64,000 bases of DNA from an uncultured Eubacteriales bacterium (lineage in GTDB: Bacteria; Bacillota; Clostridia; Peptostreptococcales; Anaerovoracaceae): contig CACYQX010000005.1 of the NCBI GenBank assembly GCA_902776725.1, positions 1 to 64,000 of the forward strand. Direction: 5' to 3'. The notes beneath the pieces are model-generated. The model saw nothing but the letters and a program-made list of their open reading frames with translations, made no database searches and was not told the origin of the DNA. The position numbers were made by a program, and so were the translations under genes. Below, in pieces: positions 6,364 through 21,197 of the stretch; positions within the stretch are counted from its first letter, which is position 1; the number at the start of each line of letters is the position of its first letter.

Positions 6364-6438
6364 AGTTCCGTTGGGTTTTGAGGGTTCAGAACTCAACAAA
6401 ATGTAAGTCATATTTTTGTGGAGAAAGGTGATTTAGAT

Positions 6439-7155
6439 ATGGCAATCAACAAAATAATCACTGCAGAAGAAGCTGTTGCCGGCGTAAAGGACGGTATGAC
6501 AATCATGATCGGTGGCTTCCTTGGAACAGGTTCCCCGGAAATCATCATCGATGCACTGATTGCAAAGGGCGTTAAGGACCTTACCGTAATCGCCAACGAC
6601 GGCGGTCTTCCGGTCGGCACCTATGATGCTAAGACGGCAAGAGGTGTTGGCAAGCTGCTCGAAAAGGGCATGGTAAAACACATTATTGCTTCCCACGTTG
6701 GAATGAATCCACTTATCGGTGAAGGCATGAATGACGGATCCATCAAGTGCACATTGGTTCCACAGGGAACACTCGCTGAGAAGATTCGTGCAGCCAACTA
6801 TGGTCTGGGCGGAGTTCTCACTCCAACAGGTGTAAGCACACCGATGGAAACAGAAAAGGACGAATTGGGAAGAGATAAACAGGTATTGGAGCTCGACGGC
6901 AGAAAGTATCTCCTTGAGATGCCACTCCATGCAGACTATGCATTCTGCAGAGCTTCCGTAGCTGATACATTTGGTAACTTCTACTGTGCAAAGGCAACAA
7001 AGAACTTCAACTATGTAATGGCCGGAGCTGCTGATCATACATTCATCGCAGCTGAGAAGGTTGTTGACATCGCTGAGATCGATCCTGACAGATGGGATGT
7101 TCCTGGCGTAGTAGTAGAAGGAGTTGTGGAAGGAGAACCGGTATGGCAGATCTAA
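6439..7155 (+). CDS. atoD: CoA-transferase subunit A (acetate/butyrate-acetoacetate type)
   Basis: 238 residues from the ATG at 6439, chosen because GAAAGGTG sits 8 bases upstream; an in-frame GTG at 6418 is less likely. Class I CoA-transferase alpha fold with the glycine loop GGFLGTGSPE and the typical VIANDGG strand. With AtoA it moves CoA between acyl-CoA and a free acid, for example butyryl-CoA and acetoacetate, the last step of lysine fermentation by this route. A segment at residues ~135-155 (EKDELGRDKQVLELDG) is the usual lid region of these subunits. Its end overlaps atoA by 13 bases, so the two are translationally coupled. Confidence 0.88.
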   Translation: MAINKIITAEEAVAGVKDGMTIMIGGFLGTGSPEIIIDALIAKGVKDLTVIANDGGLPVGTYDAKTARGVGKLLEKGMVKHIIASHVGMNPLIGEGMNDGSIKCTLVPQGTLAEKIRAANYGLGGVLTPTGVSTPMETEKDELGRDKQVLELDGRKYLLEMPLHADYAFCRASVADTFGNFYCAKATKNFNYVMAGAADHTFIAAEKVVDIAEIDPDRWDVPGVVVEGVVEGEPVWQI

Positions 7156-7796
7156 AAGAAAGAATTGCAAGAAGATGCGCAAAGGAATTTAAGGACGGCG
7201 CATTTGTAAACCTCGGTATTGGTCTTCCTACACAGGTAGCTAACTATCTCCCGGAGGGAGTAACAGTTACGCTTCATTCCGAGAACGGATTTGCCGGTCT
7301 TGCTGGAATGGCAGAGAAAGGCCATGAGGATGTTGACATCGTTAACTCCGGTGGTGCTTATGTAACAGCAGTTCCATGGGTTAACTATTTCGACTCAGCT
7401 ACAAGCTTTGGTATGGCTAGAGGACACCTCGATGCTACAGTACTCGGAGCTATGGAAGTAGCAGAGAACGGCGACCTTGCCAACTGGATTGTTCCGGGTG
7501 CAAAGGTTGCAGGCATGGGCGGAGCTATGGACCTTGTTGCAGGAGCAAGAAAGGTAATCGTAGTTACCATGCATACACAGAAGGGTGCTCCAAAGATTTT
7601 GGAAAAATGCACACTTCCGCTTACAGCTGAAAAGTGCGTAAGCATGATCATTACAGAGATGGGCGTTATGGAAGTAACTCCTGAAGGACTCGTGGTAAAG
7701 GAACTCCACCCGGACTTCTCAAAGGAAGACATCCAGGCTGCTACAGGCTGCAAGCTTATCTTTGCTGACGATCTTAAGCCGATGGAAGAAGAATAA
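7143..7796 (+). CDS. atoA: CoA-transferase subunit B (catalytic)
   Basis: 217 residues, starting at the ATG at 7143 inside the end of atoD; GGAGAA just upstream serves as ribosome binding site. The catalytic glutamate that forms the covalent acyl/CoA thioester is E47 in HSENGFAG. Other family blocks are MGGAMDL and MHTQKGAPKIL. Works as a heteromer with AtoD in the cytoplasm. Neighbouring kamDE and atoE support butyryl-CoA:acetoacetate CoA-transferase, but substrate range cannot be set from sequence alone. A terminator follows 21 bases after the stop. Confidence 0.9.
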   Translation: MADLKERIARRCAKEFKDGAFVNLGIGLPTQVANYLPEGVTVTLHSENGFAGLAGMAEKGHEDVDIVNSGGAYVTAVPWVNYFDSATSFGMARGHLDATVLGAMEVAENGDLANWIVPGAKVAGMGGAMDLVAGARKVIVVTMHTQKGAPKILEKCTLPLTAEKCVSMIITEMGVMEVTPEGLVVKELHPDFSKEDIQAATGCKLIFADDLKPMEEE

Positions 7797-7863: not shown

Positions 7864-9564
7864 ATGAAATTCAAAGACATGGTCTATGAAAGACCGAATC
7901 CCGACAAGATCAAAGAAATGCTGGTTGAGTTCGTTGAGAGACTTAAATCGGCAGAGACCTACGAAGAAGCAAAAAAAGTATTTTTGGAGCAGGAAGAGGA
8001 GTCAAAGCATGTCCATACTATGGCTAATCTTGCGAGCATCCGAAACTCAATCAACACCAAGGATGAATTCTACGAAAAGGAAAAAGAATTCTGGGATAAA
8101 TTTGGTGCTGAGTTAAGACAGTATATTCAGCCGTTCAACGACGCGCTTTTGGAATCTCCTTTTAGAAAGGATTTTGAGGAAGAGTTCGGAAGCCTTATGT
8201 TTGTAAATGCGGAAATCCATAAGAGGGCATTCAAGCCGGAGATGGTTCCGCTAATGGTCAAGGAAAACGAGCTGGATACAAAGTACAGTAAACTCATCGC
8301 ATCAGCACAGATTGAGTTTAACGGCGGAACCTATACTCTTTCGCAGCTCGGCACATTCAAGACCGGCGCCGATGACGAGGAACGACTCGCCGCTTGGAAG
8401 GCAGAGGGTAAATGGTATAAGGAAAACCAGCCTGAACTTGATGCGATTTATGATGAACTCGTCAAGCTGAGAACAGAGATGGGCAAGATGCTCGGACATG
8501 AGAACTTTGTTCCGCTCGGATACGATCATATGACGAGAAACTGCTACGATAAGAATGACGTAGAAGAATTCCGCGCGGCAGTAGTTAAGTATCTCGTTCC
8601 TGTTGCGGAAGATATATATAAGAGACAGGCGGAGAGATTGGGTAAGACATATCCTCTCAGCTTTGCGGATGCGGCGCTCAGCTTCAGAAGCGGAAATCCG
8701 CGTCCAAAGGGAACGCCTGACGACATAGTTGCCGCGGGCAAAAAGTTCTACGATGAACTCTCTCCGGAGACGAGCTTATTCTTCAATACCATGCTCGATA
8801 ACGAACTCATGGATCTTCTTTCTACGGAAGGAAAACGTGCCGGCGGATACTGCACTTCGATTCCTGATTACAAGGTGCCGTTTATATTTGCCAACTTCAA
8901 CGGCACGCAGCACGACGTAGAGGTTGTTACGCATGAGGCGGGACATGCCTTTGCTGCATGGACCAATAGAAACAGGGTTCCGATGAGCACTGTATGGCCG
9001 AGCATGGAGGGATGCGAGGTACACTCGATGTCCATGGAATTCTTTGCGGACCCGTGGGCGGAAGACTTCTTCGGCGATGACAAAGATAAGTATCTCTATA
9101 ACCATCTCTCGGGATCAATTACGTTCATCCCTTACGGAACGATGGTCGATCACTTCCAGCACATAGTTTATGAGAATCCGGATCTGACGCCGGCCGAGAG
9201 ACATGCGGAGTGGAAGAGACTCCTCGGAATATATATGCCTTGGATGAAGCTGGACGGAGAGATTCCTGTTTACTCAGACGGAGAGGGTTGGCAGAGACAG
9301 CTCCATATATACGGAAGTCCGTTCTACTATATAGACTATTGCCTTGCGCAGACGGTTGCGCTCGGATTCTGGGCAATGATTCAGGAAGATCCAAAGAACG
9401 CATGGAAACACTATATGGCTTATACAGAGCAGGGCGGAAGCGCAACATTTACAGAGCTTCTAAAGAACGCAGGACTTAAGAGTCCGTTCGACGAAAATAC
9501 GCTCCGCGGAGTATGCGAAAAGGCCAAGGAATATCTCGATAATTTCGAGATTACATGGGCGTAG
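7864..9564 (+). CDS. M3-family oligoendopeptidase (PepF-like zinc metallopeptidase)
   Basis: 566 residues with the zinc-binding motif HEAGH (H357, E358, H361) and the downstream third ligand region EGCEVHSMSMEFF. Cytoplasmic; hydrolyses short peptides, so it is a natural partner of the peptide importer that follows. The length matches the oligoendopeptidase F-like M3 group. AGAGGGGGA upstream of the ATG fixes the start. It lies between the atoA terminator and the dppA promoter, so it is probably a single-gene unit, transcribed from a promoter I could not identify or by read-through. Confidence 0.92.
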   Translation: MKFKDMVYERPNPDKIKEMLVEFVERLKSAETYEEAKKVFLEQEEESKHVHTMANLASIRNSINTKDEFYEKEKEFWDKFGAELRQYIQPFNDALLESPFRKDFEEEFGSLMFVNAEIHKRAFKPEMVPLMVKENELDTKYSKLIASAQIEFNGGTYTLSQLGTFKTGADDEERLAAWKAEGKWYKENQPELDAIYDELVKLRTEMGKMLGHENFVPLGYDHMTRNCYDKNDVEEFRAAVVKYLVPVAEDIYKRQAERLGKTYPLSFADAALSFRSGNPRPKGTPDDIVAAGKKFYDELSPETSLFFNTMLDNELMDLLSTEGKRAGGYCTSIPDYKVPFIFANFNGTQHDVEVVTHEAGHAFAAWTNRNRVPMSTVWPSMEGCEVHSMSMEFFADPWAEDFFGDDKDKYLYNHLSGSITFIPYGTMVDHFQHIVYENPDLTPAERHAEWKRLLGIYMPWMKLDGEIPVYSDGEGWQRQLHIYGSPFYYIDYCLAQTVALGFWAMIQEDPKNAWKHYMAYTEQGGSATFTELLKNAGLKSPFDENTLRGVCEKAKEYLDNFEITWA

Positions 9565-9801: not shown

Positions 9802-11811
9802 ATGAAAAAGACAAGAGTGTTGGTTGCTTTATTGCTAATCTTCACAATGATCTTCACTGTAGCTCTTACCGGTTGCGCCAAGAAGGAAGAGCCGGCTGAG
9901 GAACCAGCAGAAGAAGAAGCTGCTGAAGAAGAAGCTGAAGAAGAACCAGCAGAAGAAGCTGAAGAAGAGGTAGTTGAACCGGATATCGACTATGACGCTA
10001 AGGGTCAGGTTATCTATGGTTCCACAACCGAACTCGGTGGAGACCTTGGTAATGCTTGGTGGACAAACAACGCAAGCGACAAGATGATTAGAGACCTGAT
10101 CAATGACTATCATGTTATCGTTTCCGATCAGGGCGGTGAATTCATTGAGAACGCTACAGTTGTTAAGAACATCGAGAGCGTAGTAAATGAAGATGGAACA
10201 AAGACATTTACTGTAACCATCAACGAAGGATTGACTTATAACAATGGCGATCCTATTACAGCTAAGGACTATGTTGCATACGCATTGGTAGCTTACTCCC
10301 CAGCAACAAAGGAAGCTGGCGGTAAGGTAACGGCAGACTCGGTTGTTGGTGCTCCAGAGTACCAGGCTGGAGAAGCAACAGTTCTTTCCGGTGTAAAACT
10401 AGTTGACGATTACACATATTCCATCCAGATTTCTGCAGATTATATCCCTTATTACTTCGATAGCACATATGCTTCACTTGAACCACTGCCGCTCAAGATG
10501 TATGCAAGTGCACCTCTCGAAGTTAAGGATGATGGCGAAGGTGCATATCTTGACGGTGGCGAACTCGTAGCCAGCGAAATTGATGCAGCTCGTTACATCT
10601 ATGCTGACAGAATCTCTGCAGGCCCTTATCAGCTTGCTGACCTGGACCTCGCATCCCTTTCCGCTAAGTTGGTTCTCAATCCTAACTATGCAGGAAACTT
10701 TGAAGGCGTAAAGCCGACAATCAATCAGATCATCGTGGTTAAGGCTAACCAGGAAACAATGATCGACCAGCTCAAGACCGGTGGTATCGACTTCCTGTCA
10801 ACACTGACAGACGGCGACCAGGTTAACGCTGCACTCGACCTTGAAGATCAGGGTATCGTTCGTACAGTAAGCTATGAGCGTAACGGCTATGGTAAACTCA
10901 TGTTCCAGTGCGACTTTGGTCCGACACAGTTCAAGGAAGTTCGCCACGCAATCGCTTATCTGCTTGACAGAAACGAATTTGCTAACCAGTTCTGCCAGGG
11001 CTTTGGTTCCGTAGTTGACGGTCCTTATGGACTTGCAATGTGGATGTACAAGGATTCCAAGGAAGAGTTGGCTTCCAGCCTTAACAAGTACAGCTACAGC
11101 GTTGAAAGCGCAGTAGAAGAACTTAAGAACGGCGGTTGGGTACTCAACGCAGACGGTAGTGACTATGTAGATGGTTCCGGAGAGATCCGTCATAAAGAAG
11201 TAACAGCTGAAGAAGCTGGTGACTATGCACACAATGTAACATTGGCTGACGGCAGAATCCTTATGCCGCTGATCATTGAGTGGTCTTCATCCGAAGGTAA
11301 CTCCGTATCTGAGCTCCTCGCAGTAATGCTTGCTAACGGAGACCAGACAAAGGAAGCTGGCGTTAAGATCAACCAGAACGTTATGTCCTTCGACGACCTT
11401 CTCAACTATATGTACAGAGATTCGTCCGTAGGCGATCAGTATGGCGTTAAGACATACGGAATGTACAACCTTGCTACAAACTTCACAGCTGCTTACAGCC
11501 AGGCTTATAACTGGGTAACAGCAGAGACAAATCCGGAGTACTATGAGCAGGGATACAACAGCAACTTTACAGATAACGTAAAGCTCGACCAGCTCTCAAT
11601 GGATATGGTTTACGGCGTTGAAGCTGGTGACAGCGAAGCTTACCGTGCTATTTGGGTAGACTTCATCAAAGAGTGGAACGATTATCTACCGGAAGTTCCG
11701 CTATACTCCAACGTTTACTATGATGCAATGGCTAGCAAGATCGAAGGAATCGAGTGCAACAGCTTGTTCGACTTCGACCAGGCCGTAGTATATGGTACTG
11801 TAAACGACTAA
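9802..11811 (+). CDS. Peptide ABC transporter substrate-binding lipoprotein (SBP family 5)
   Basis: 669 residues, longer than the usual ~540. A lipoprotein signal peptide ends in LTGC (Cys25, lipid anchor), followed by a low-complexity Glu/Ala/Pro linker (residues ~28-58) that would hold the receptor away from the membrane. The mature part is a DppA/OppA-like domain (YNNGDPITAKDYVAYAL, LVLNPNYAGN, VRHAIAYLLDRNEF). It captures peptides outside the cell and passes them to the DppBC channel. AAGGAGG ribosome binding site. A strong hairpin separates it from the permease genes, so it can be made in excess, as is usual for binding proteins. Confidence 0.92.
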   Translation: MKKTRVLVALLLIFTMIFTVALTGCAKKEEPAEEPAEEEAAEEEAEEEPAEEAEEEVVEPDIDYDAKGQVIYGSTTELGGDLGNAWWTNNASDKMIRDLINDYHVIVSDQGGEFIENATVVKNIESVVNEDGTKTFTVTINEGLTYNNGDPITAKDYVAYALVAYSPATKEAGGKVTADSVVGAPEYQAGEATVLSGVKLVDDYTYSIQISADYIPYYFDSTYASLEPLPLKMYASAPLEVKDDGEGAYLDGGELVASEIDAARYIYADRISAGPYQLADLDLASLSAKLVLNPNYAGNFEGVKPTINQIIVVKANQETMIDQLKTGGIDFLSTLTDGDQVNAALDLEDQGIVRTVSYERNGYGKLMFQCDFGPTQFKEVRHAIAYLLDRNEFANQFCQGFGSVVDGPYGLAMWMYKDSKEELASSLNKYSYSVESAVEELKNGGWVLNADGSDYVDGSGEIRHKEVTAEEAGDYAHNVTLADGRILMPLIIEWSSSEGNSVSELLAVMLANGDQTKEAGVKINQNVMSFDDLLNYMYRDSSVGDQYGVKTYGMYNLATNFTAAYSQAYNWVTAETNPEYYEQGYNSNFTDNVKLDQLSMDMVYGVEAGDSEAYRAIWVDFIKEWNDYLPEVPLYSNVYYDAMASKIEGIECNSLFDFDQAVVYGTVND

Positions 11812-11850
11812 TTCCAGTAATGGTTAGTTGGTTGGACTAAAAAGGTTAAC

Positions 11851-11890
11851 GCTCTAGTGGGGTGCTCCAAGCATCCCGCTAGAGCGTGCT
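11851..11890 (+). terminator. Strong intercistronic hairpin (partial terminator or mRNA stabiliser)
   Basis: A 16-bp stem (11851-11866 with 11870-11885; two G-T pairs, no mismatch) closes a 3-nt loop. Only a short TTTT follows, interrupted by GC, so read-through into dppB is likely. It fits differential expression of the binding protein over the permease. Confidence 0.75.
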
Positions 11891-11973: not shown

Positions 11974-12990
11974 TTGTCAAAGTATATTCTAAAGAGAATT
12001 GTGTACATAGTTGTGGTATTTTTCATAATATCATTCTTAATGTATAGCCTGTATAATCTTATTCCAAGCGATCCCGCTCGTAATCAATTAGAAGCACAAA
12101 AAAGTTCACTAAGACCTGAAGAGTATGACAAGCTGTATAAGCAGCTGAGAGAAGAGATGGGTCTCGACGATCCTATCGTTGTCAGATACGCAAGGTGGAT
12201 GGGACTTGCCCCAAACAAAAAAGGAGAATGGGACGGTTTATTGGAAGGAAACTTTGGGGATTCTTCATTCTTTAAAAAACCAATTGTAGAAGTAATAAAG
12301 GAACCGATCAAGACGACGGTTTTCATAAACATATTTGCTACGATACTTGCGCTGGGTATTACGATACCGCTGGGTATCTATTGTGCTGTGCACAAGGGTA
12401 GTACCTTTGATAAAGCGACGCAGGTAGTTACGATTGTCGGATACAGTATTCCAGTATATATCATAGCGTTATTATTCATATTCTTATTTGCGGTAATCCT
12501 TGGATGGTTCCCGGTCGGCGGCATGGGTACGCCGGGTGAGGAATATACAGGTTTTAAGTTCTATGCGGATAGACTTTATTATTTCGCTTTACCGCTTATC
12601 GTTATGACCTTTGGTTCGCTCGGCGGAATGACGAGATACGTCAGAGCCGCAATGATCGATGCTCTCAGCATGGATCATATCAAGACCGCAAGAGCCAAGG
12701 GTGTAAAAGAAAAGACAGTAATATATTCACATGCATGGAGAAATGCGCTTCTTCCCGTAATCACGGTTATCATCGGTTGGTTCTTGGGCATTTTCGGCGG
12801 ATCGGTTATCATCGAGAATACCTTCAATATCAACGGTATGGGCTCTCTGTATATCAAGGGTCTTAATAACCACGACTACGATTTGGCACTAGCCATGCAG
12901 ATGTTCTATACAGTTGTTTCACTTGTTGGCGCGCTGATTACGGACCTTAGCTATGGTCTCGTCGATCCACGCGTAAGGGTTAACAAATAG
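11974..12990 (+). CDS. dppB: Peptide ABC transporter permease, DppB/OppB type
   Basis: 338 residues with six predicted membrane segments. Starts with TTG at 11974, supported by AGGAGG (11960-11965) 8 bases upstream and by the classical N-terminus (M)SKYILKRI. The cytoplasmic EAA-type coupling loop is TARAKGVKEKTVIYSHAWRN followed by LLP, and the C-terminus GLVDPRVR is the family end. Forms the channel with the unusual DppC encoded next. Slightly longer than typical because of a loop at residues ~75-100 (KKGEWDGLLEGNFGDSS), which is common in the family. Confidence 0.92.
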   Translation: MSKYILKRIVYIVVVFFIISFLMYSLYNLIPSDPARNQLEAQKSSLRPEEYDKLYKQLREEMGLDDPIVVRYARWMGLAPNKKGEWDGLLEGNFGDSSFFKKPIVEVIKEPIKTTVFINIFATILALGITIPLGIYCAVHKGSTFDKATQVVTIVGYSIPVYIIALLFIFLFAVILGWFPVGGMGTPGEEYTGFKFYADRLYYFALPLIVMTFGSLGGMTRYVRAAMIDALSMDHIKTARAKGVKEKTVIYSHAWRNALLPVITVIIGWFLGIFGGSVIIENTFNINGMGSLYIKGLNNHDYDLALAMQMFYTVVSLVGALITDLSYGLVDPRVRVNK

Positions 12991-13002: not shown

Positions 13003-14832
13003 ATGAACGAAAACAAAAAGAAATTTTCACTTCTTACCAGACTCTTTGGTAACCGCAACAAAGAAGTGGACGTAATGGTAGAGGAACAGATTCAGAGCCC
13101 GGGAAGGATGATGGTAGATAACTTCCTTCACAACAAGCTGGGAATGATAGGTCTGCTTGGATTCTTGGCCATCTTCCTATTTGTTATCGTGGCGCCTCTG
13201 TTCGTACCAATCAATTTGGGTGATTCCGACCCGACACAGATAAATGTACCGCCAACAAGATCCATGCTCAGTGTCCCAAAAGAAATGAAGGGACATGTTC
13301 AGGCGATTGCCCCGGGTCCAACCTACGGCGTTGGCTGCGACGATAACGGCAAGGTCTATGTATGGGGATATACCAAGATAACGGAAGTCCTCGATGTAGC
13401 CAAGATTCCTGATGATGTTAAGAATGCTAAGATAGTTGACTTGGCTGCAGGTTATGACCATGTAGTTGCACTCGACAGCGAGAACGGCTTGCACGTTTGG
13501 GGAAATACCAGACTTGGTCAGGATAGAATTCCGGATGAACTCAAGGATGGAAAGACCAAGAAGGCAGATACCATTATTCAGATCGAAGCAGGATATCAGA
13601 TTTCAGGTGCGGTAACGGATACAGGCTACGCATACTTCTGGGGCAACAGCAATATGGCTGATATAGAGGTAAAATCTCAGTATCAGGGCCATATCAAAAA
13701 GATTGCCATAGCTACATATAACTATTGCTTGCTCTTGGATGACGGTTCCGTTGTTTATGGCGGTTTGGAAGCTGCCAACGCATTTACAAGAATTCCGGAA
13801 ACGCTTTCGAGCGGAGTTGTGGATATCGCTGCGAGCGGTGAAACCATGGCTGCCGTAAAGGAAGACGGAAAGATTACCGTATGGGGCAATGCCTCCCACG
13901 GCGAGAAGAATATTCCGGAAACAGAGAGTAAGCCGGTGGAAATCTATGGTGGAAGATATCACTACACTGTTCTTATGGACAACGGAGACGTTGTTTCGTG
14001 GGGTGATGATTCTCACGGTGAAGCTAGCGTTCCTTCTGCGGTTAACGGCGAAGAAATCGAAACCGTATATGCGGGCTTCTATCAGAACTATGCCGTTACA
14101 AAGAGCGAAGACATCAAGGCTTGGGGCCTAAAGGGTCACGTTCTCGGTACCGACGAACTCGGAAGAGACCTCTTAACAAGAATGGTAAACGGCGGTAAGA
14201 CAACTATGACGGTTGGTTTTATAGCCGAAATTATCGCAGTTGTTATAGGAATTATCATGGGGGGTCTTTCGGGATACTTCGGCGGAAAGGTCGATATGCT
14301 CATCATGCGTATATCCGAGATAGTCGGAGGACTTCCATTCCTCCCGTTCTCGCTTTTGCTTTCTGCCATCATCGGTTCAAGAATCGATCCGCAGCTTAGA
14401 ATGTATCTCATCATGGTAGTTCTCGGTCTTCTGACATGGCCGGGAATATGCAGGCTTATCCGTGCGCAGATACTTGCAGAGCGTGAAAAAGAATTCGTTA
14501 TTGCTGCTCAGGCCATGGGCGTAAAGGAAGCGGCAATCATATTTAAGCATATTCTTCCGAACGTGCTATCAATCCTATTGGTACAGGCAACTCTCGGTTT
14601 TGCCACATGCATGCTGACAGAGTCGTCCCTGAGTTATCTCGGATTTGGTGTAACACCGCCGACACCGACTTGGGGTAATATGCTGAAGGGTGCCAATAAC
14701 TCAATCGTAATCCAGCAATACTGGTGGCGTTGGGTATTCCCGGCAGCTATCTTCGGTATCTGTACAATATGCATTAACCTGATGGGTGACGGCATTAGAG
14801 ATGCAGTCGATCCGAAGTCGTTAGGAAGGTAG
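13003..14832 (+). CDS. dppC: Peptide ABC transporter permease DppC with an inserted seven-repeat RCC1-like beta-propeller
   Basis: 609 residues, about twice the normal DppC length. The N-terminal OppC part with the first membrane helix (residues ~47-70) is followed, in the loop that should face outside, by seven RCC1-like repeats (residues ~92-378) ending in W-G or equivalent at W121, W166, W213, Y252, W294, W333 and W374. The permease then resumes at H379 with HVLGTDELGRDLLTRMVNGG, five more membrane helices and the EAA loop AAQAMGVKEAAIIFKH. Both parts are in one open frame with no junction artefact. Seven repeats would close a full propeller, so this is a receptor- or lid-like extracellular domain. 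Usual spacing from helix 1 to the GTDELGRD motif is a few tens of residues. Ribosome binding site AGGAGG, 12 bases after dppB. Confidence 0.92.
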   Translation: MNENKKKFSLLTRLFGNRNKEVDVMVEEQIQSPGRMMVDNFLHNKLGMIGLLGFLAIFLFVIVAPLFVPINLGDSDPTQINVPPTRSMLSVPKEMKGHVQAIAPGPTYGVGCDDNGKVYVWGYTKITEVLDVAKIPDDVKNAKIVDLAAGYDHVVALDSENGLHVWGNTRLGQDRIPDELKDGKTKKADTIIQIEAGYQISGAVTDTGYAYFWGNSNMADIEVKSQYQGHIKKIAIATYNYCLLLDDGSVVYGGLEAANAFTRIPETLSSGVVDIAASGETMAAVKEDGKITVWGNASHGEKNIPETESKPVEIYGGRYHYTVLMDNGDVVSWGDDSHGEASVPSAVNGEEIETVYAGFYQNYAVTKSEDIKAWGLKGHVLGTDELGRDLLTRMVNGGKTTMTVGFIAEIIAVVIGIIMGGLSGYFGGKVDMLIMRISEIVGGLPFLPFSLLLSAIIGSRIDPQLRMYLIMVVLGLLTWPGICRLIRAQILAEREKEFVIAAQAMGVKEAAIIFKHILPNVLSILLVQATLGFATCMLTESSLSYLGFGVTPPTPTWGNMLKGANNSIVIQQYWWRWVFPAAIFGICTICINLMGDGIRDAVDPKSLGR

Positions 14833-14842
14833 GAGGTAAATC

Positions 14843-15835
14843 ATGGCACTATTGGAAGTTAAGAATTTACATACCTACTTCACGACGAAGAAGGGCATAG
14901 TTAAAGCAGTAAACGACGTTGATTACAAAGTTGACGCAGGTAAGACTCTAGGACTGGTAGGAGAATCCGGTTCAGGAAAGAGCGTATCCGCGATGAGTAT
15001 AATCAAGCTCCTCGACGGAAACGGTTATATCGACAGCGGTGAAATATTCTTTGATGGAAAGAATCTTACCGAGATGTCGCTTCAGGATATCTATGAGATC
15101 CGTGGCGACGATATCTCTGTTATCTTCCAGGAACCGATGACGAGCCTTAACCCGGTTTTCACAATCGAGAAGCAGGTATCGGAATCCTTTATCATTCACC
15201 AAGGGATGTCCAAGGAAGAAGCAAAGAAAAAGGTTGTCGAGATTCTGGCTGACGTTAAGATTCCAAATCCTGAAGTCGTAGCCAAGCAGTATCCGCACCA
15301 GCTTTCGGGCGGTATGAGACAGAGAGTAATGATCGCTATGGCTCTGGCGTGCAAGCCAAAGCTTCTCATAGCGGACGAGCCGACAACGGCGCTCGACGTT
15401 ACTATTCAGGCGCAGATTCTGCACCTCATGAACGAGCTTCAGAGAGAAAAGGGAACTGCTATCCTGTTCATTACTCACGACCTTGGCGTTATCAATCAGA
15501 TGGCTGACGATGTTGCGGTTATGTACTGTGGACAGGTTGTAGAGATGTCACCGAGAAGGACAATCTTTGCCGATCCCGAATACATGCATCCATATACAGA
15601 GGGCCTCTTCGAATCAATCCCGAGGCTGAACACGGAGCAGGGTAAACGCTTGGAGTCAATTCCGGGCGCGGTTCCGCATCCGCTAAATCTTCCTAAGGGA
15701 TGCAAGTTCTCGCCGAGATGTAAGTATGCAACGGATAAATGCAAGGAAGAAGAACCTGAACTACAGCAGGTAACTGAAGACCAGCAGATACGTTGCTTCT
15801 ATCCGAATAGGAGGGATCGTCATGTCACAAAATGA
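14843..15835 (+). CDS. dppD: Peptide ABC transporter ATPase DppD
   Basis: 330 residues, normal length. Walker A GESGSGKS, Q-loop IFQEPMTSLNP, signature LSGGMRQR, Walker B LLIADEPTTALD, H-loop ITHD, and a C-terminal oligopeptide-transporter domain with four cysteines (GCKFSPRC..., DKC, IRC). Cytoplasmic ATPase that pairs with DppF to drive import. TAGGAGGT ribosome binding site; the last 14 bases overlap dppF. Unlike DppF it has no inserted segment. Confidence 0.95.
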   Translation: MALLEVKNLHTYFTTKKGIVKAVNDVDYKVDAGKTLGLVGESGSGKSVSAMSIIKLLDGNGYIDSGEIFFDGKNLTEMSLQDIYEIRGDDISVIFQEPMTSLNPVFTIEKQVSESFIIHQGMSKEEAKKKVVEILADVKIPNPEVVAKQYPHQLSGGMRQRVMIAMALACKPKLLIADEPTTALDVTIQAQILHLMNELQREKGTAILFITHDLGVINQMADDVAVMYCGQVVEMSPRRTIFADPEYMHPYTEGLFESIPRLNTEQGKRLESIPGAVPHPLNLPKGCKFSPRCKYATDKCKEEEPELQQVTEDQQIRCFYPNRRDRHVTK

Positions 15836-17336
15836 TAGAAAGGTTTTATTAAAGGTTAGAAACCTTAAGCAATACTTCCCTCTTAAGAAAAAAGGTCTAT
15901 ACGTCAAAGCCAACGACGGCATTTCCTTGGATATTTACGAGGGTGAAGTATTCGGTCTCGTAGGTGAGTCCGGTTGCGGTAAATCCACTCTGGGTAGAAC
16001 TCTCCTTCAGCTCTATAAGCAGACCGACGGTAGAACGATGTACTACGGAAAGTCTCTGGAGGAAATTTCGCCTAAATACGTACTCGAGACCATCAAGGAC
16101 GTAAACAAGCTTAAACCCAGAATCAAAGAATTGGCTGAGAAGAGGGATAAGCTTCAGGCTGAATACAACAAGATGTCCGAGCAGGAGCAATACGCAAAGC
16201 ATGCAGAACTCGAAGCAGCAAAGAAGGCCGCAAACGACGTACTGCTCGACGTAGGAAATATCTTTGGCGGACTTATGGCCGTCGACGATATGTCCGAAAT
16301 TCAGAGGGCTTTCGAGAAGCAGTGGAATCTCGCTCACACGGGTGTTGGATTGGACACGGAGAGAAGAGAAATCCAGGTTAAGAGAGACGATGCGGAATTT
16401 GCAGGAAAGAATACTTCTTCCTACGATTCAAAGCTTGCTGCTATCGACGAAAAGATAAAAGCCAACGACGAAGCTCTTGCCAAGGCTACAGCGGAAATTG
16501 ATGCGCTGCGCGAGAAATACAAGAACGTTGAAGGTTATGACAAATACGAAGAACTGAGGGATTCGGGAATAGACCTTGCGCGTCTCGATTATAGCGAGAT
16601 TCGTCTTCTGAGACAGGACCTTCAGATTATCTTCCAGGATCCATATTCCTCGCTCAATCCGCGTATGACCATCGGTCAGATTATAGGGGAAGGCCTTAAG
16701 GCCCACCATATCTACGAGGAGAACAACGAGAGAATGCAGGAATACATACTTAAGGTTATGGATGACTGCGGACTGCAGCCATACTTCCTGCACAGATTTC
16801 CGCACCAGTTCTCCGGTGGTCAGCGTCAGCGTGTAGCTATCGGCAGAGCGCTCGCGGTTAATCCGAAGTTTGTTGTATGCGACGAAGCCGTATCGGCATT
16901 GGACGTATCGGTACAGTCGCAGATTATCAACCTGCTTCAGGATCTAAGGGAGAAGCAAGACCTGACATATCTATTCATTACGCACGATCTATCGGTTGTA
17001 AAATACATCTCCGACAGAATCGGCGTTATGTACCTCGGCAATATGGTTGAACTATCTGAGTCCGAGAAGATATTTTCAAGACCGCTGCATCCTTATACAC
17101 AGGCGCTCATAGTCGCGATTCCGACAACTGAGCCGGATGTAGATCAGACTTTGCAGATTCTTGAAGGTGATATTCCGAGTCCGGTTAATCCTCCAAGCGG
17201 ATGCAAGTTCCATACTAGATGCAGATTCTGCACGGATATATGCAAGAACATCGTTCCTGCGTGGAGAGAACTCGAGCCGGGACACTTCGTTGCTTGTCAC
17301 CATCCTTTGACAGAAGGTCAGGATAAAGAACAGTAA
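15822..17336 (+). CDS. dppF: Peptide ABC transporter ATPase DppF with a large helical insert
   Basis: 504 residues against ~320 usual. Walker A GESGCGKST is at residues 48-56, but the Q-loop glutamine (IIFQDPYSSLNP) is at residue 272, so ~216 residues separate elements normally ~50 apart. The extra ~170 residues (about 80-250) are charged and helical, with two long coiled-coil-like stretches (around DVNKLKPRIKELAEKRDKLQ and AAIDEKIKANDEALAKATAE) flanking a central part. The rest is canonical: signature FSGGQRQR, Walker B VVCDEAVSALD, H-loop THD and a Cys-rich C-terminal domain (five cysteines). The insert lies at the tip of the helical/RecA junction and could bind a partner or DppC. Ribosome binding site AGGAGGG inside dppD. 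Confidence 0.92.
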   Translation: MSQNDRKVLLKVRNLKQYFPLKKKGLYVKANDGISLDIYEGEVFGLVGESGCGKSTLGRTLLQLYKQTDGRTMYYGKSLEEISPKYVLETIKDVNKLKPRIKELAEKRDKLQAEYNKMSEQEQYAKHAELEAAKKAANDVLLDVGNIFGGLMAVDDMSEIQRAFEKQWNLAHTGVGLDTERREIQVKRDDAEFAGKNTSSYDSKLAAIDEKIKANDEALAKATAEIDALREKYKNVEGYDKYEELRDSGIDLARLDYSEIRLLRQDLQIIFQDPYSSLNPRMTIGQIIGEGLKAHHIYEENNERMQEYILKVMDDCGLQPYFLHRFPHQFSGGQRQRVAIGRALAVNPKFVVCDEAVSALDVSVQSQIINLLQDLREKQDLTYLFITHDLSVVKYISDRIGVMYLGNMVELSESEKIFSRPLHPYTQALIVAIPTTEPDVDQTLQILEGDIPSPVNPPSGCKFHTRCRFCTDICKNIVPAWRELEPGHFVACHHPLTEGQDKEQ

Positions 17337-17663: not shown

Positions 17664-20600
17664 ATGAGACAACTCAAGACAATGGACGGCAATACCGCTG
17701 CTGCGCATGTCGCTTATGCGTTTACAGAGGTAGCTGCCATCTATCCAATCACACCGTCTTCTCCCATGGCCGAAAGCATGGACGAGTGGGCGGCAGAAGA
17801 TCGTAAGAACATCTTTGGTGAGCAGGTAAAGATTGTAGAACTTGAATCAGAAGCAGGTGCCGCAGGTGCCGTTCACGGTTCCGTGGCAGCAGGTTCATAT
17901 ACTTCTACATTCACAGCTTCACAGGGACTTCTTCTTATGATTCCTAACATGTATAAGCTCGCAGGTGAGCATTCGCCGGCAGTTTTCCATGTTTCCGCAA
18001 GAGCGCTTGCTACACACGCTCTTTCAATCTTTGGCGATCAGGCAGACGTAATGGCCGTTCGTCAGACGGGATTTGTAATGATAGCAAGTAACAGCGTTCA
18101 GCAGGTAATGGACCTTGCTGCTGTTGCACATCTTGCAGCTATCGGCGGACATCTTCCGGTGCTTCATTTCTTTGATGGATTCAGAACATCACATGAGCAA
18201 CAGAAGATCGAGATGTGGGACTATGATGAACTCGCATCAATGGTTGACTGGGATGCGGTAAAGGCATTCAAGCAGAGAACATTCCACCCGACAAATCCGT
18301 ATATCATGGGACCTGCTGAGCAGCCTGAGTCTTACTTCCAGCACAAAGAAGCAAGCAACAAGGCTTACGAGGAGACTCCTGACATCGTTGCTAAGTATAT
18401 GGATATGGTCAATGCCAAGATCGGCACAGACTATAAGCCTTTCAATTACTATGGTGCGCCTGATGCAACAGACATCATCGTAGCTATGGGTTCGGTCTGC
18501 GACGCAGCTGAAGAACTCATCGACTATATGATGGCAGAAGGCAAGAAGGTTGGTATCCTTGAGGTTCACCTCTATAGACCATTCTCCGCAGAGTATATGC
18601 TCAAGGTTCTTCCTGAGACTGTTAAGAAGATTTCAGTTCTTGACAGAACAAAGGAACCCGGCGGCGTAGGCGAACCACTCTATATCGACGTGGTAAGCGC
18701 ACTCAAGGGAAGCAAGTTTGAAGATGCTGAGATGTTCCGCGGACGTTATGGACTCGGTTCCAAGGACGTTCAGCCGGGAGACATCCTCGCTGCATTCGAG
18801 AATATGGAAAGCGCAAATCCGAAGAAAGAGTTCACACTCTCAATCGAGGACGATGTAACCAATCTTTCCATCAAGCCAAGCCACTATCCTGATACAGCTC
18901 CTGAGGGAACCAAGGCATGCAAGTTCTGGGGACTCGGTGCTGACGGAACAGTAGGCGCAAACAAGAACAGCGTAAAGATTATCGGTGACCACACGGACAA
19001 GAAGGCTCAAGCATACTTCCAGTATGACAGTAAGAAGTCCGGCGGCGTTACAATCTCCCACCTGAGATTTGGTGACAAGCCGATCAAGTCAACATATTAC
19101 GTAAAGCAGGCTGACTTTGTTGCCTGCCACAACGAAGCTTACGTACATCTCTACAAGATGGTAGAGGACGTTAAGCCGGGCGGAATCTTCCTTCTGAACT
19201 GTACATGGGACGATGCTGAACTTGACAAGCACCTTCCGGCAACGATGAAGAGATACATCGCCAAGAACAACGTTCAGTTCTACACATGTAACGCTGTAGA
19301 AATCGCCAAGGAAATCGGTCTCGGCGCACGCCACACCAATATGGTACTTCAGGCTGCATTCTTTAAGCTCGCAGACATTATTCCTATCGACGAAGCAGTA
19401 GAATACATGAAGGATGCCATCAAGAAGACTTACGGCCGCAAGGGCGACGAAGTCGTAAACATGAATATGGCAGCCGTTGACCAGGGAATTGAAAAGATTC
19501 ACAAGGTTGACGTTCCTGCTTCATGGGCAGATTGTCCGGACGACGCAGCACCTGAAGAATACAAGGGCCGCGACAAATTCCATACGGACTTCCTGAACAA
19601 GGTTCTCTATCCGTATAGCCATATGGACGGAGATTCCATCCCTGTATCCACATTCCTCGATTCACAGAGCGGTATTTCCCCGAGCGGAACATCTGCCTTT
19701 GAAAAGAGAGGTATTGCTACAGACGTACCTGTATGGGACAAGGATAAATGTATCCAGTGTAACCAGTGCGCTTATGTATGTCCGCATGCTGTAATCAGAC
19801 CGTTCGTAATCGACGGCGAGCAGGCAGAAGCAATCGGTAATGACTGCGCTCCTGTAAAGGGCATCAAGGATATGGAAGACAAATGCTTCACAATGGGCAT
19901 TTCCGCTCTTGACTGCACGGGCTGCGGATCCTGCGCATACGTATGTCCTGCAAAGGAGAAGGCTCTCACAATGACGCCGGTAGATTCCGATGTATTTGAG
20001 AATTCTCAGAAGAAGTTCGACTATCTCTTTGAGAATGTTGATCCTAAGACTCAGCCTGCGGCTACAAACAACGTAAAGAACTCACAGTTCCTGCAGCCGC
20101 TCCTCGAGTTCTCAGGCGCTTGCCCGGGATGCGGTGAGACACCATATGCTAAGCTCATCACTCAGCTCTTTGGTGACAGAATGTATATCGCAAACGCTAC
20201 GGGATGTTCCTCCATCTGGGGTAACTCACTCCCGAGCACACCTTATACAGTAAACAAAGAGGGTAGAGGTCCTGCATGGGCTAACTCGCTCTTTGAAGAC
20301 AATGCTGAATTCGGTTACGGTATCGCAATCTCCATGAAGGCACGCCGTCAGGAGATGAAGTCCGCAGTTGAGAGACTCGTTCCGGAACTCGGTGCCACAG
20401 CACAGGATTGGATTGACGGAATGAACGATGCCGAGAAGGCTGAAGAAGCAGGAAAAGCTCTCCTCGCTGCATGCGAAAAGATGTCCGGAAACAAGGACGC
20501 CGAATATGTAGTTGAGAACAAGTCCATGCTCATCAAGCCATCCGTATGGATCTTCGGTGGTGACGGTTGGGCTTACGATATCGGTTACGGCGGACTCGAT

Positions 20601-21197
20601 CACGTACTTGCAAGCGGCGAGAACGTAAACGTAATGGTATTCGATACGGAAGTTTACTCCAACACAGGTGGACAGTCCTCCAAGGCTACACCGCTCGGAG
20701 CAGTTGCTAAGTTTGCTTCCGCAGGTAAGGGCGTAAAGAAGAAAGACCTTGCTCAGATTGCCATGGCTTATGGATACATCTATGTTGCGGTAATCAATAT
20801 GGGTGCAAACCAGAACCAGACACTCCAGGCTATCAAGGAAGCTGAAGCTTATGACGGACCATCTCTCATAATCGCTTACGCACCTTGCATCAACCACGGT
20901 ATCAAGGTCGGCATGAACAGATCACAGGAAGAAGCCAAGAAGGCTACAGCTTCCGGTTACTGGAACATGCTTCGCTTCAACCCTGCACTTGCAGAGAAGG
21001 GTGAGAATCCGCTCACAATTGACAGCAAGGAAGCTACAGAGAGCTATAGAGACTTCCTCATGGGCGAAGTTCGTTATAACTCCCTCGCAGCCAGATTCCC
21101 GGAGAAGGCGGAAGCACTCTTTGAGGAAGCTGAAAAGCAGTCAAAGGAGAGATTCGAACATCTCCAGGCTCTCAAGGACAGCTACGACAAAGCATAA
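17664..21197 (+). CDS. nifJ: Pyruvate:ferredoxin (flavodoxin) oxidoreductase, single-chain
   Basis: 1177 residues, the normal length of the fused homodimeric enzyme. It oxidises pyruvate plus CoA to acetyl-CoA and CO2, reducing ferredoxin. Domain order: domain I with AYAFTEVAAIYPITPSSPMAE, the CoA-contact domains, a ferredoxin-like insert with two 4Fe-4S motifs (CIQCNQCAYVCP and CTGCGSCAYVCP), the proximal cluster/TPP region (GACPGCGETPY, ATGCSSIWG) and the TPP motif (GDGWAYDIGYGG...NTGGQSS). Strong GGAAGGGAG ribosome binding site. The gene stands alone, followed by a run of inverted repeats and a terminator. It supplies acetyl-CoA to citrate synthase and fermentation. Confidence 0.97.
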   Translation: MRQLKTMDGNTAAAHVAYAFTEVAAIYPITPSSPMAESMDEWAAEDRKNIFGEQVKIVELESEAGAAGAVHGSVAAGSYTSTFTASQGLLLMIPNMYKLAGEHSPAVFHVSARALATHALSIFGDQADVMAVRQTGFVMIASNSVQQVMDLAAVAHLAAIGGHLPVLHFFDGFRTSHEQQKIEMWDYDELASMVDWDAVKAFKQRTFHPTNPYIMGPAEQPESYFQHKEASNKAYEETPDIVAKYMDMVNAKIGTDYKPFNYYGAPDATDIIVAMGSVCDAAEELIDYMMAEGKKVGILEVHLYRPFSAEYMLKVLPETVKKISVLDRTKEPGGVGEPLYIDVVSALKGSKFEDAEMFRGRYGLGSKDVQPGDILAAFENMESANPKKEFTLSIEDDVTNLSIKPSHYPDTAPEGTKACKFWGLGADGTVGANKNSVKIIGDHTDKKAQAYFQYDSKKSGGVTISHLRFGDKPIKSTYYVKQADFVACHNEAYVHLYKMVEDVKPGGIFLLNCTWDDAELDKHLPATMKRYIAKNNVQFYTCNAVEIAKEIGLGARHTNMVLQAAFFKLADIIPIDEAVEYMKDAIKKTYGRKGDEVVNMNMAAVDQGIEKIHKVDVPASWADCPDDAAPEEYKGRDKFHTDFLNKVLYPYSHMDGDSIPVSTFLDSQSGISPSGTSAFEKRGIATDVPVWDKDKCIQCNQCAYVCPHAVIRPFVIDGEQAEAIGNDCAPVKGIKDMEDKCFTMGISALDCTGCGSCAYVCPAKEKALTMTPVDSDVFENSQKKFDYLFENVDPKTQPAATNNVKNSQFLQPLLEFSGACPGCGETPYAKLITQLFGDRMYIANATGCSSIWGNSLPSTPYTVNKEGRGPAWANSLFEDNAEFGYGIAISMKARRQEMKSAVERLVPELGATAQDWIDGMNDAEKAEEAGKALLAACEKMSGNKDAEYVVENKSMLIKPSVWIFGGDGWAYDIGYGGLDHVLASGENVNVMVFDTEVYSNTGGQSSKATPLGAVAKFASAGKGVKKKDLAQIAMAYGYIYVAVINMGANQNQTLQAIKEAEAYDGPSLIIAYAPCINHGIKVGMNRSQEEAKKATASGYWNMLRFNPALAEKGENPLTIDSKEATESYRDFLMGEVRYNSLAARFPEKAEALFEEAEKQSKERFEHLQALKDSYDKA

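Follow-up and report, generated by a model that had tools for sequence, protein, structure and literature searches.

Importers of the Opp/Dpp type are familiar five-component machines whose cargo is believed to be chosen by the binding protein. In the Escherichia coli system (PMC12136057), the region between transmembrane helices 1 and 2 (TM1 and TM2) of the permease DppC is periplasmic, DppC pairs with the ATPase DppF, and a scoop on DppB is described as an additional contact with the receptor. Comparative analyses of a 64,000-nucleotide stretch from an uncultured Eubacteriales bacterium (assembly GCA_902776725.1, contig CACYQX010000005.1, positions 1 to 64,000 of the forward strand; hereafter the window) show an operon of this kind with a different DppC. 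Its TM1-TM2 loop holds an insert of 291 residues (85-376), for which structure prediction gives a seven-bladed RCC1/BLIP-II-like propeller, and its DppF carries an insert of its own. Tentatively, and at somewhat less than an even chance, the propeller, which likely lies outside the membrane, docks the operon's own substrate-binding protein (SBP). The permease gene is laid out as follows.

13003..14832, + strand: DppC-type permease with propeller insert, whole gene (reading frame, repeats, Pfam and predicted structure)
13096..13254, + strand: OppC_N segment including TM1 (residues 32-84; TM1 helix at 45-67)
13255..14130, + strand: predicted RCC1/BLIP-II-like seven-bladed propeller insert (residues 85-376; Pfam, PDB matches and structure prediction)
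14146..14169, + strand: GTDELGRD motif ahead of TM2 (residues 382-389)
14239..14817, + strand: BPD_transp_1 permease core (residues 413-605; OppC/DppC fold in the fold search)

The frame encodes 609 residues, with the start and stop given in a first-pass annotation made from the sequence alone. Pfam models for OppC_N (residues 32-84; 42.1 bits against a cut-off of 23.9) and BPD_transp_1 (413-605; 97.1 against 26.4) flank five mid-chain stretches of RCC1_2 repeats (92.9 bits against 22), and the RCC1-like model WD40_RLD matches residues 139-383 with 138.2 bits (E 5.5e-40), below its cut-off of 150. PDB matches by sequence are split as well, OppC/DppC chains aligning to residues 375-606 and BLIP-II/RCC1 chains to the middle of the chain. 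The annotation had described a DppC permease split between TM1 and GTDELGRD by RCC1-like repeats, and this is backed by profile, structure-prediction and comparative evidence. It had also placed seven repeat ends of tryptophan-glycine (W-G) type, which on inspection by eye are W121-G, W166-G, W213-G, Y252-G, W294-G, W333-G and W374-G; the positions and the spacing of 39-47 are right, residue 252 being a tyrosine rather than a tryptophan.

With OppC_N and BPD_transp_1 above their curated cut-offs, the operon composition and a type I importer transmembrane fold, the protein is an Opp/Dpp C subunit. The insert has RCC1_2 above cut-off and the predicted propeller fold of the RCC1/BLIP-II superfamily, although the WD40_RLD cut-off is not reached. 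The best NCBIfam match of DppC is the Opp4C equivalog NF045476, to which it was not assigned because its 312.8 bits fall below the curated cut-off of 350. Membership of the BceB-type transporters, a permease family with a large extracellular sensory domain, was also considered and rejected: the family matches are OppC_N and BPD_transp_1, and no BceB-type model is among the Pfam and NCBIfam matches listed.

Structure prediction of the chain alone, proposed as a check in the first-pass annotation, gave propeller-type strand triplets at residues 99-122, 144-167, 191-214, 272-295, 311-334 and 352-375; blade 4 has two strands at 231-245 and a third (about 249-253) below listing length. Blade 7 lacks its fourth strand, which probably comes from the N-terminal side, residues 91-97 resembling the segment that precedes strand 1 elsewhere. 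In the fold search, the best structural match of the propeller is BLIP-II. The propeller likely lies outside the membrane, beside the receptor protein, because the corresponding region of E. coli DppC faces the periplasm; this agrees with the first-pass annotation, homology to E. coli DppC being the one line of support. The chain exits the propeller at G375 and the TM2 helix (from 390) follows 14 residues on. Coming from TM1, it would run into the segment that seems to provide the absent strand of blade 7. Judging from strand order and chain connectivity, both tethers (in at about 85, out at 376) would join the same face, which would be the one bearing the turns between strands 1 and 2 and the beginnings of the loops that follow W-G. 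Since both tethers would attach there, the residues conserved on or next to this face (D152, H153, R170, Q199, N215, Q361 and N362) would point to the membrane mouth. Among 76 sequences, D152, H153, Q199 and N215 never vary and Q361 hardly does, and G382, D384 and G387 of the GTDELGRD motif are likewise invariant. At least 80% conservation is seen at 9 of the 37 positions scored on the tether face and at 1 of 42 on the opposite face (p = 0.008, in a test designed after the list of conserved positions was already known). The first-pass annotation had named receptor docking, substrate selection, cell-wall binding and gating of the entrance as candidate roles; these data mildly favour a membrane-facing role, such as docking, over one of reaching toward the wall.

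The first-pass annotation had called the arrangement very unusual. Of 7996 candidates scored in a search for homologues, 1897 proteins matched at E <= 1e-3; the best 120 of the 1897 share 62-94% identity with the query across 96-100% of its length, and all 120, read by eye, carry the OppC_N, RCC1 and BPD_transp_1 models. Named genome contigs contain at least 594 matched stretches, of which at least 567 encode a relative, and the best 80 of these relatives were taken as the locus set, a few being cut by contig ends (loci and genomes are numbered with L and G below). The 80 include Erysipelotrichaceae/Solobacterium, Oscillospiraceae, Lachnospiraceae, Christensenella, Tissierella and others, many from ruminant or other gut samples. 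Among the assemblies with a propeller locus are those of the named strains Hungatella effluvii DSM 24995 and Erysipelotrichaceae bacterium NK3D112. An artefact, a chimera, a chance match or a mis-assembly is excluded by the 120 listed homologues together with loci from many assemblies. A frame was called propeller-type if its start and its GTD motif lie over 330 residues apart and three or more W-G pairs are present; in 22 ordinary DppC frames this distance is 75-111 residues. The propeller form occurs in 14 of 398 genomes sampled from the phylum (cut at the contig start in G306). In the window's own assembly, which is 85%-complete, RCC1_2 is confined to the propeller permease gene and an ordinary Dpp-like set is present elsewhere. 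One locus titled Petrimonas sp. (L052) has the same operon layout and match values as L051 (Clostridiaceae), and is probably a mis-binned contig.

A permease-core tree was made from 117 rows thinned to 69 at 88% crude ungapped identity (midpoint root, quick method, no bootstrap). All propeller-type rows fall on one branch (Shimodaira-Hasegawa-like approximate likelihood ratio test, SH-aLRT, 100), apart from ordinary DppC and from L084. Two rows inside the branch, L063 and L071, are labelled '?' or 'ord'; as both begin at a contig end, the labels are attributed to truncation. Because all propeller-type rows share one branch, the pattern would most simply reflect one acquisition of the propeller, followed by inheritance or transfer as a unit. 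The arrangement is not a one-off: the propeller permease is a conserved branch of Opp/Dpp importers in Firmicutes. Within it, the propeller is shown to be under purifying selection, since the ratio of nonsynonymous to synonymous substitution rates (dN/dS) in 17 close pairs is 0.03-0.24 for the propeller and 0.01-0.08 for the permease core. These pairs come from 31 hand-picked sequences, in which 21 pairs lay within the identity filter of 0.85-0.995; the 17 kept do not include the window. The pairs window-L004, L007-L009, L007-L011 and L008-L011 were dropped for saturated propeller dS, and the window-L004 core value was lost too, to an in-frame TAG in the L004 stretch.

The earlier picture was also incomplete, in that a linked insertion in the ATPase DppF had been overlooked.

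14843..15835, + strand: DppD ATPase, of ordinary length and insert-free
15822..17336, + strand: DppF ATPase with insert, 504 residues
16053..16565, + strand: DppF insert (residues 78-248, approximately), located after the Walker A half and ahead of the Q loop

In the DppF model (predicted local distance difference test, pLDDT, 88.7; predicted template modelling score, pTM, 0.86), the insert forms four long helices at 94-117, 120-153, 158-193 and 199-232, and ATP-binding cassette (ABC) ATPases are among the matches listed in its fold search. The distance from Walker A to the Q loop was used as a measure in 94 propeller loci (the best 80, 13 from further genomes and the window). The GTD motif caught 83 of these, with both ATPases measurable in 74; ten of the 11 missed by the motif were measured later, and L117 was left out. 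Ordinary operons were those with the permeases closest to the query plus neighbours of propeller operons, and are thus a non-random sample; 22 were caught, 16 measured and 6 left out, while L101, missed by the motif, had its DppF measured later. Of the propeller operons in which both ATPases could be measured, 69 of 69 have a DppF distance of 213-255 residues; it is 222-234 in five of five that are contig-cut and 195-236 in ten of the 11 missed by the motif (L062 being the shortest, at 195). Ordinary operons give 49-55 (16 of 16) and, in L101, 49; L084 has 50. Propeller and DppF insert therefore occur together in 84 of 84 measured propeller operons, and both are absent from the 17 measured ordinary ones. 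In DppD the same distance is 54 in every measured propeller operon and 54-56 in ordinary ones (L101 left out), except for 88 in L086. Both operon types lie side by side in L009, where the ordinary one has a DppC of 298 and a DppF of 346 residues (stop-to-stop frames). Searched alone, the DppF insert matches 14 of the 398 genomes, 13 of them among the 14 propeller genomes; in the remaining propeller genome, G349, the contig ends inside DppD. Since all these cases belong to a single branch, the counts are evidence of linkage rather than of many independent events. The assemblies of L109, L113 and L117 break the DppF frame into two pieces, by a frameshift or an in-frame stop.

The permease, the operon and the propeller are each known, and it is their combination, and its pairing with the DppF insert, that is apparently new; a full-text literature search restricted to open-licence papers returned no title on a permease of this kind. 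The upstream part of the operon is laid out as follows.

7864..9564, + strand: PepF-like (M3) oligoendopeptidase, adjacent upstream of the operon
9802..11811, + strand: SBP (SBP_bac_5), a predicted lipoprotein (Pfam; LTGC motif by eye)
11849..11887, + strand: 18-pair hairpin between the SBP and DppB genes, terminator/processing-like
11974..12990, + strand: DppB-type permease with a scoop-type TM1-TM2 region retained

The SBP matches SBP_bac_5 with 109.4 bits against a cut-off of 32.4. Directly after its lipobox cysteine is a long acidic linker rich in Glu, Ala and Pro (window 9880-9985), perhaps a flexible stalk. A hairpin of at least 10 pairs lies downstream of the SBP frame in 73 of 79 loci examined (without a shuffle control), and perhaps favours expression of the receptor over the rest of the operon. 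The E41-R42 pair of the E. coli DppB scoop is unmatched in the window DppB (alignment read by eye). With loci omitted whose contig ends before the gene could appear, and close relatives included, an SBP (75 of 75 propeller loci) and DppB (82 of 82) lie upstream, and DppD (85 of 85) and DppF (81 of 81) downstream. Relatives of the PepF-like product of 7864..9564 are near the operon in 15 of the 80 loci, many contigs being too short to show one. No other flanking family recurs in more than five loci save an antisense frame (13 loci), the flanking frames not having been annotated singly. Opp4-type models are the best NCBIfam matches of SBP, DppB and DppC, all below their cut-offs. Together with the family 5 SBP and the PepF-like peptidase in the window and the 15 loci, they suggest oligopeptides as the substrate, and the whole is an Opp/Dpp-type ABC importer operon, likely for oligopeptides. 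On either side of it are genes resembling a CoA-transferase subunit pair (window 6418-7796) and pyruvate:ferredoxin oxidoreductase (17664-21197), both named by eye.

The docking reading fits because the SBP gene is constant, because binding is a habit of the propeller's fold relatives (PMC9218822) and because E. coli DppA neither co-purified nor co-eluted with the wild-type translocator (PMC12136057). The propeller would stand next to the pore on the extracytoplasmic side and turn its conserved face to the membrane mouth, the docking site of the receptor. It would grip the SBP, lengthening its residence time on the pump, and help to pick the cognate receptor. The DppF insert would then give this C-F half of the transporter another accessory domain, with assembly or control of the ATPase as candidate roles. 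Several points weigh against docking. DppB keeps its scoop-type region, which leaves the usual receptor contact in place. The propeller is less constrained than the permease core, with a mean pairwise identity of 0.50 against 0.73, and the conserved H153, H320 and Q173, close to the face, occupy RCC1-repeat consensus positions and may be structural. In a mirror-tree comparison of 50 operons (the window and 49 of the 80 loci, with all five genes well covered), all parts of the cassette correlate and the SBP is not singled out; partial correlations with the propeller are 0.13 for SBP, 0.25 for DppB and 0.27 for the permease core. Propeller and DppF insert co-occur inside one branch, so the cases are non-independent, and G184 (L118:6218-8756) holds a DppD-DppF pair whose DppF carries the helical insert although neither DppB nor DppC nor an SBP is next to the pair.

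The linkage to the DppF insert (84 of 84 propeller operons against 0 of 17 ordinary ones) keeps alive an outside-in regulator, in which the propeller senses an external ligand (a peptide, wall fragment or protein) and sets the ATPase through the C-F half and the DppF insert, so that the pump would run only in certain conditions; this is unlikely. The E. coli pairing of DppC with DppF would suit it, and the largest partial correlation of the propeller is with the DppF insert (0.30; the DppF core has 0.28 and DppD -0.05), but the gaps are small and come without a significance test. G184, moreover, has no recognisable propeller permease, its best other DppC match being ordinary, and apart from PepF and the antisense frame no flanking family exceeds five loci. 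A hybrid, in which the propeller on DppC grips the receptor outside, the four-helix bundle of DppF reads its state inside and receptor occupancy sets ATP use, is distinctly doubtful; if true, it would be a new coupling of receptor recognition to motor activity in ABC importers.

A little less likely than the regulator is capture, with the propeller binding peptides, a surface protease or another protein and feeding the importer as a second receptor. BLIP-II is itself a protein binder, the polar D152, Q199 and N215 are invariant with Q361 nearly so, and a PepF-like peptidase is sometimes nearby; yet an SBP gene is already present in every testable locus, the conserved face is the tether side rather than the free side, and no ligand is known. 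Anchoring of the transporter in the envelope through peptidoglycan or a surface polymer is the least probable reading. The propeller segment does match frames of 306-2387 residues in 23 of the 398 genomes without the permease, some of which could be surface repeat proteins, but the better conserved face points to the membrane, opposite to what reaching the wall would predict, and the Pfam scan of the window's operon proteins gave no wall-binding family match. Hardly more probable is a structural passenger, tolerated in the loop with no specific job beyond stability: an unrelated insert in the same loop of G069 (L084) and the faster evolution of the propeller are consistent with it, whereas the low dN/dS, the invariant residues and the linked DppF insert argue otherwise, and no row of the branch lacks a propeller except the two cut by contig ends.

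Overall, a whole branch of importers in gut and other Firmicutes has added a protein-binding-type propeller to one subunit, probably outside, and with it a helical block inside to the motor that pairs with this subunit. A propeller that docks the receptor would offer a handle on how a pump selects its own binding protein when there are several; one that signals to DppF would amount to a novel kind of control. In comparison, the E. coli OppC and DppC chains (OppBCDF and DppABCDF; PDB 8z21 and 8z1v-8z1z; PMC12136057) have 300-302 residues and no TM1-TM2 propeller, and the E. coli DppF and OppF chains have about 325-328 residues against 504 in the window. BLIP-II (PDB 1jtd, 3qhy and 3qi0) is a secreted, soluble beta-lactamase inhibitor, whereas the window propeller sits inside a permease chain; assignment to these free-standing secreted inhibitors was therefore rejected. 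The RCC1-like domains of RCC1, UVR8 and HERC are longer (mostly 350-450 residues), eukaryotic and not in a transporter. The DppC of L084 (L084:5731-7323) is likewise an Opp/Dpp permease with an extra domain in the TM1-TM2 loop, but its insert, of about 200 residues, has no Pfam match and no RCC1 repeats, and its DppF is insert-free. The TM1-TM2 loop of DppC thus seems to accept unrelated domains.
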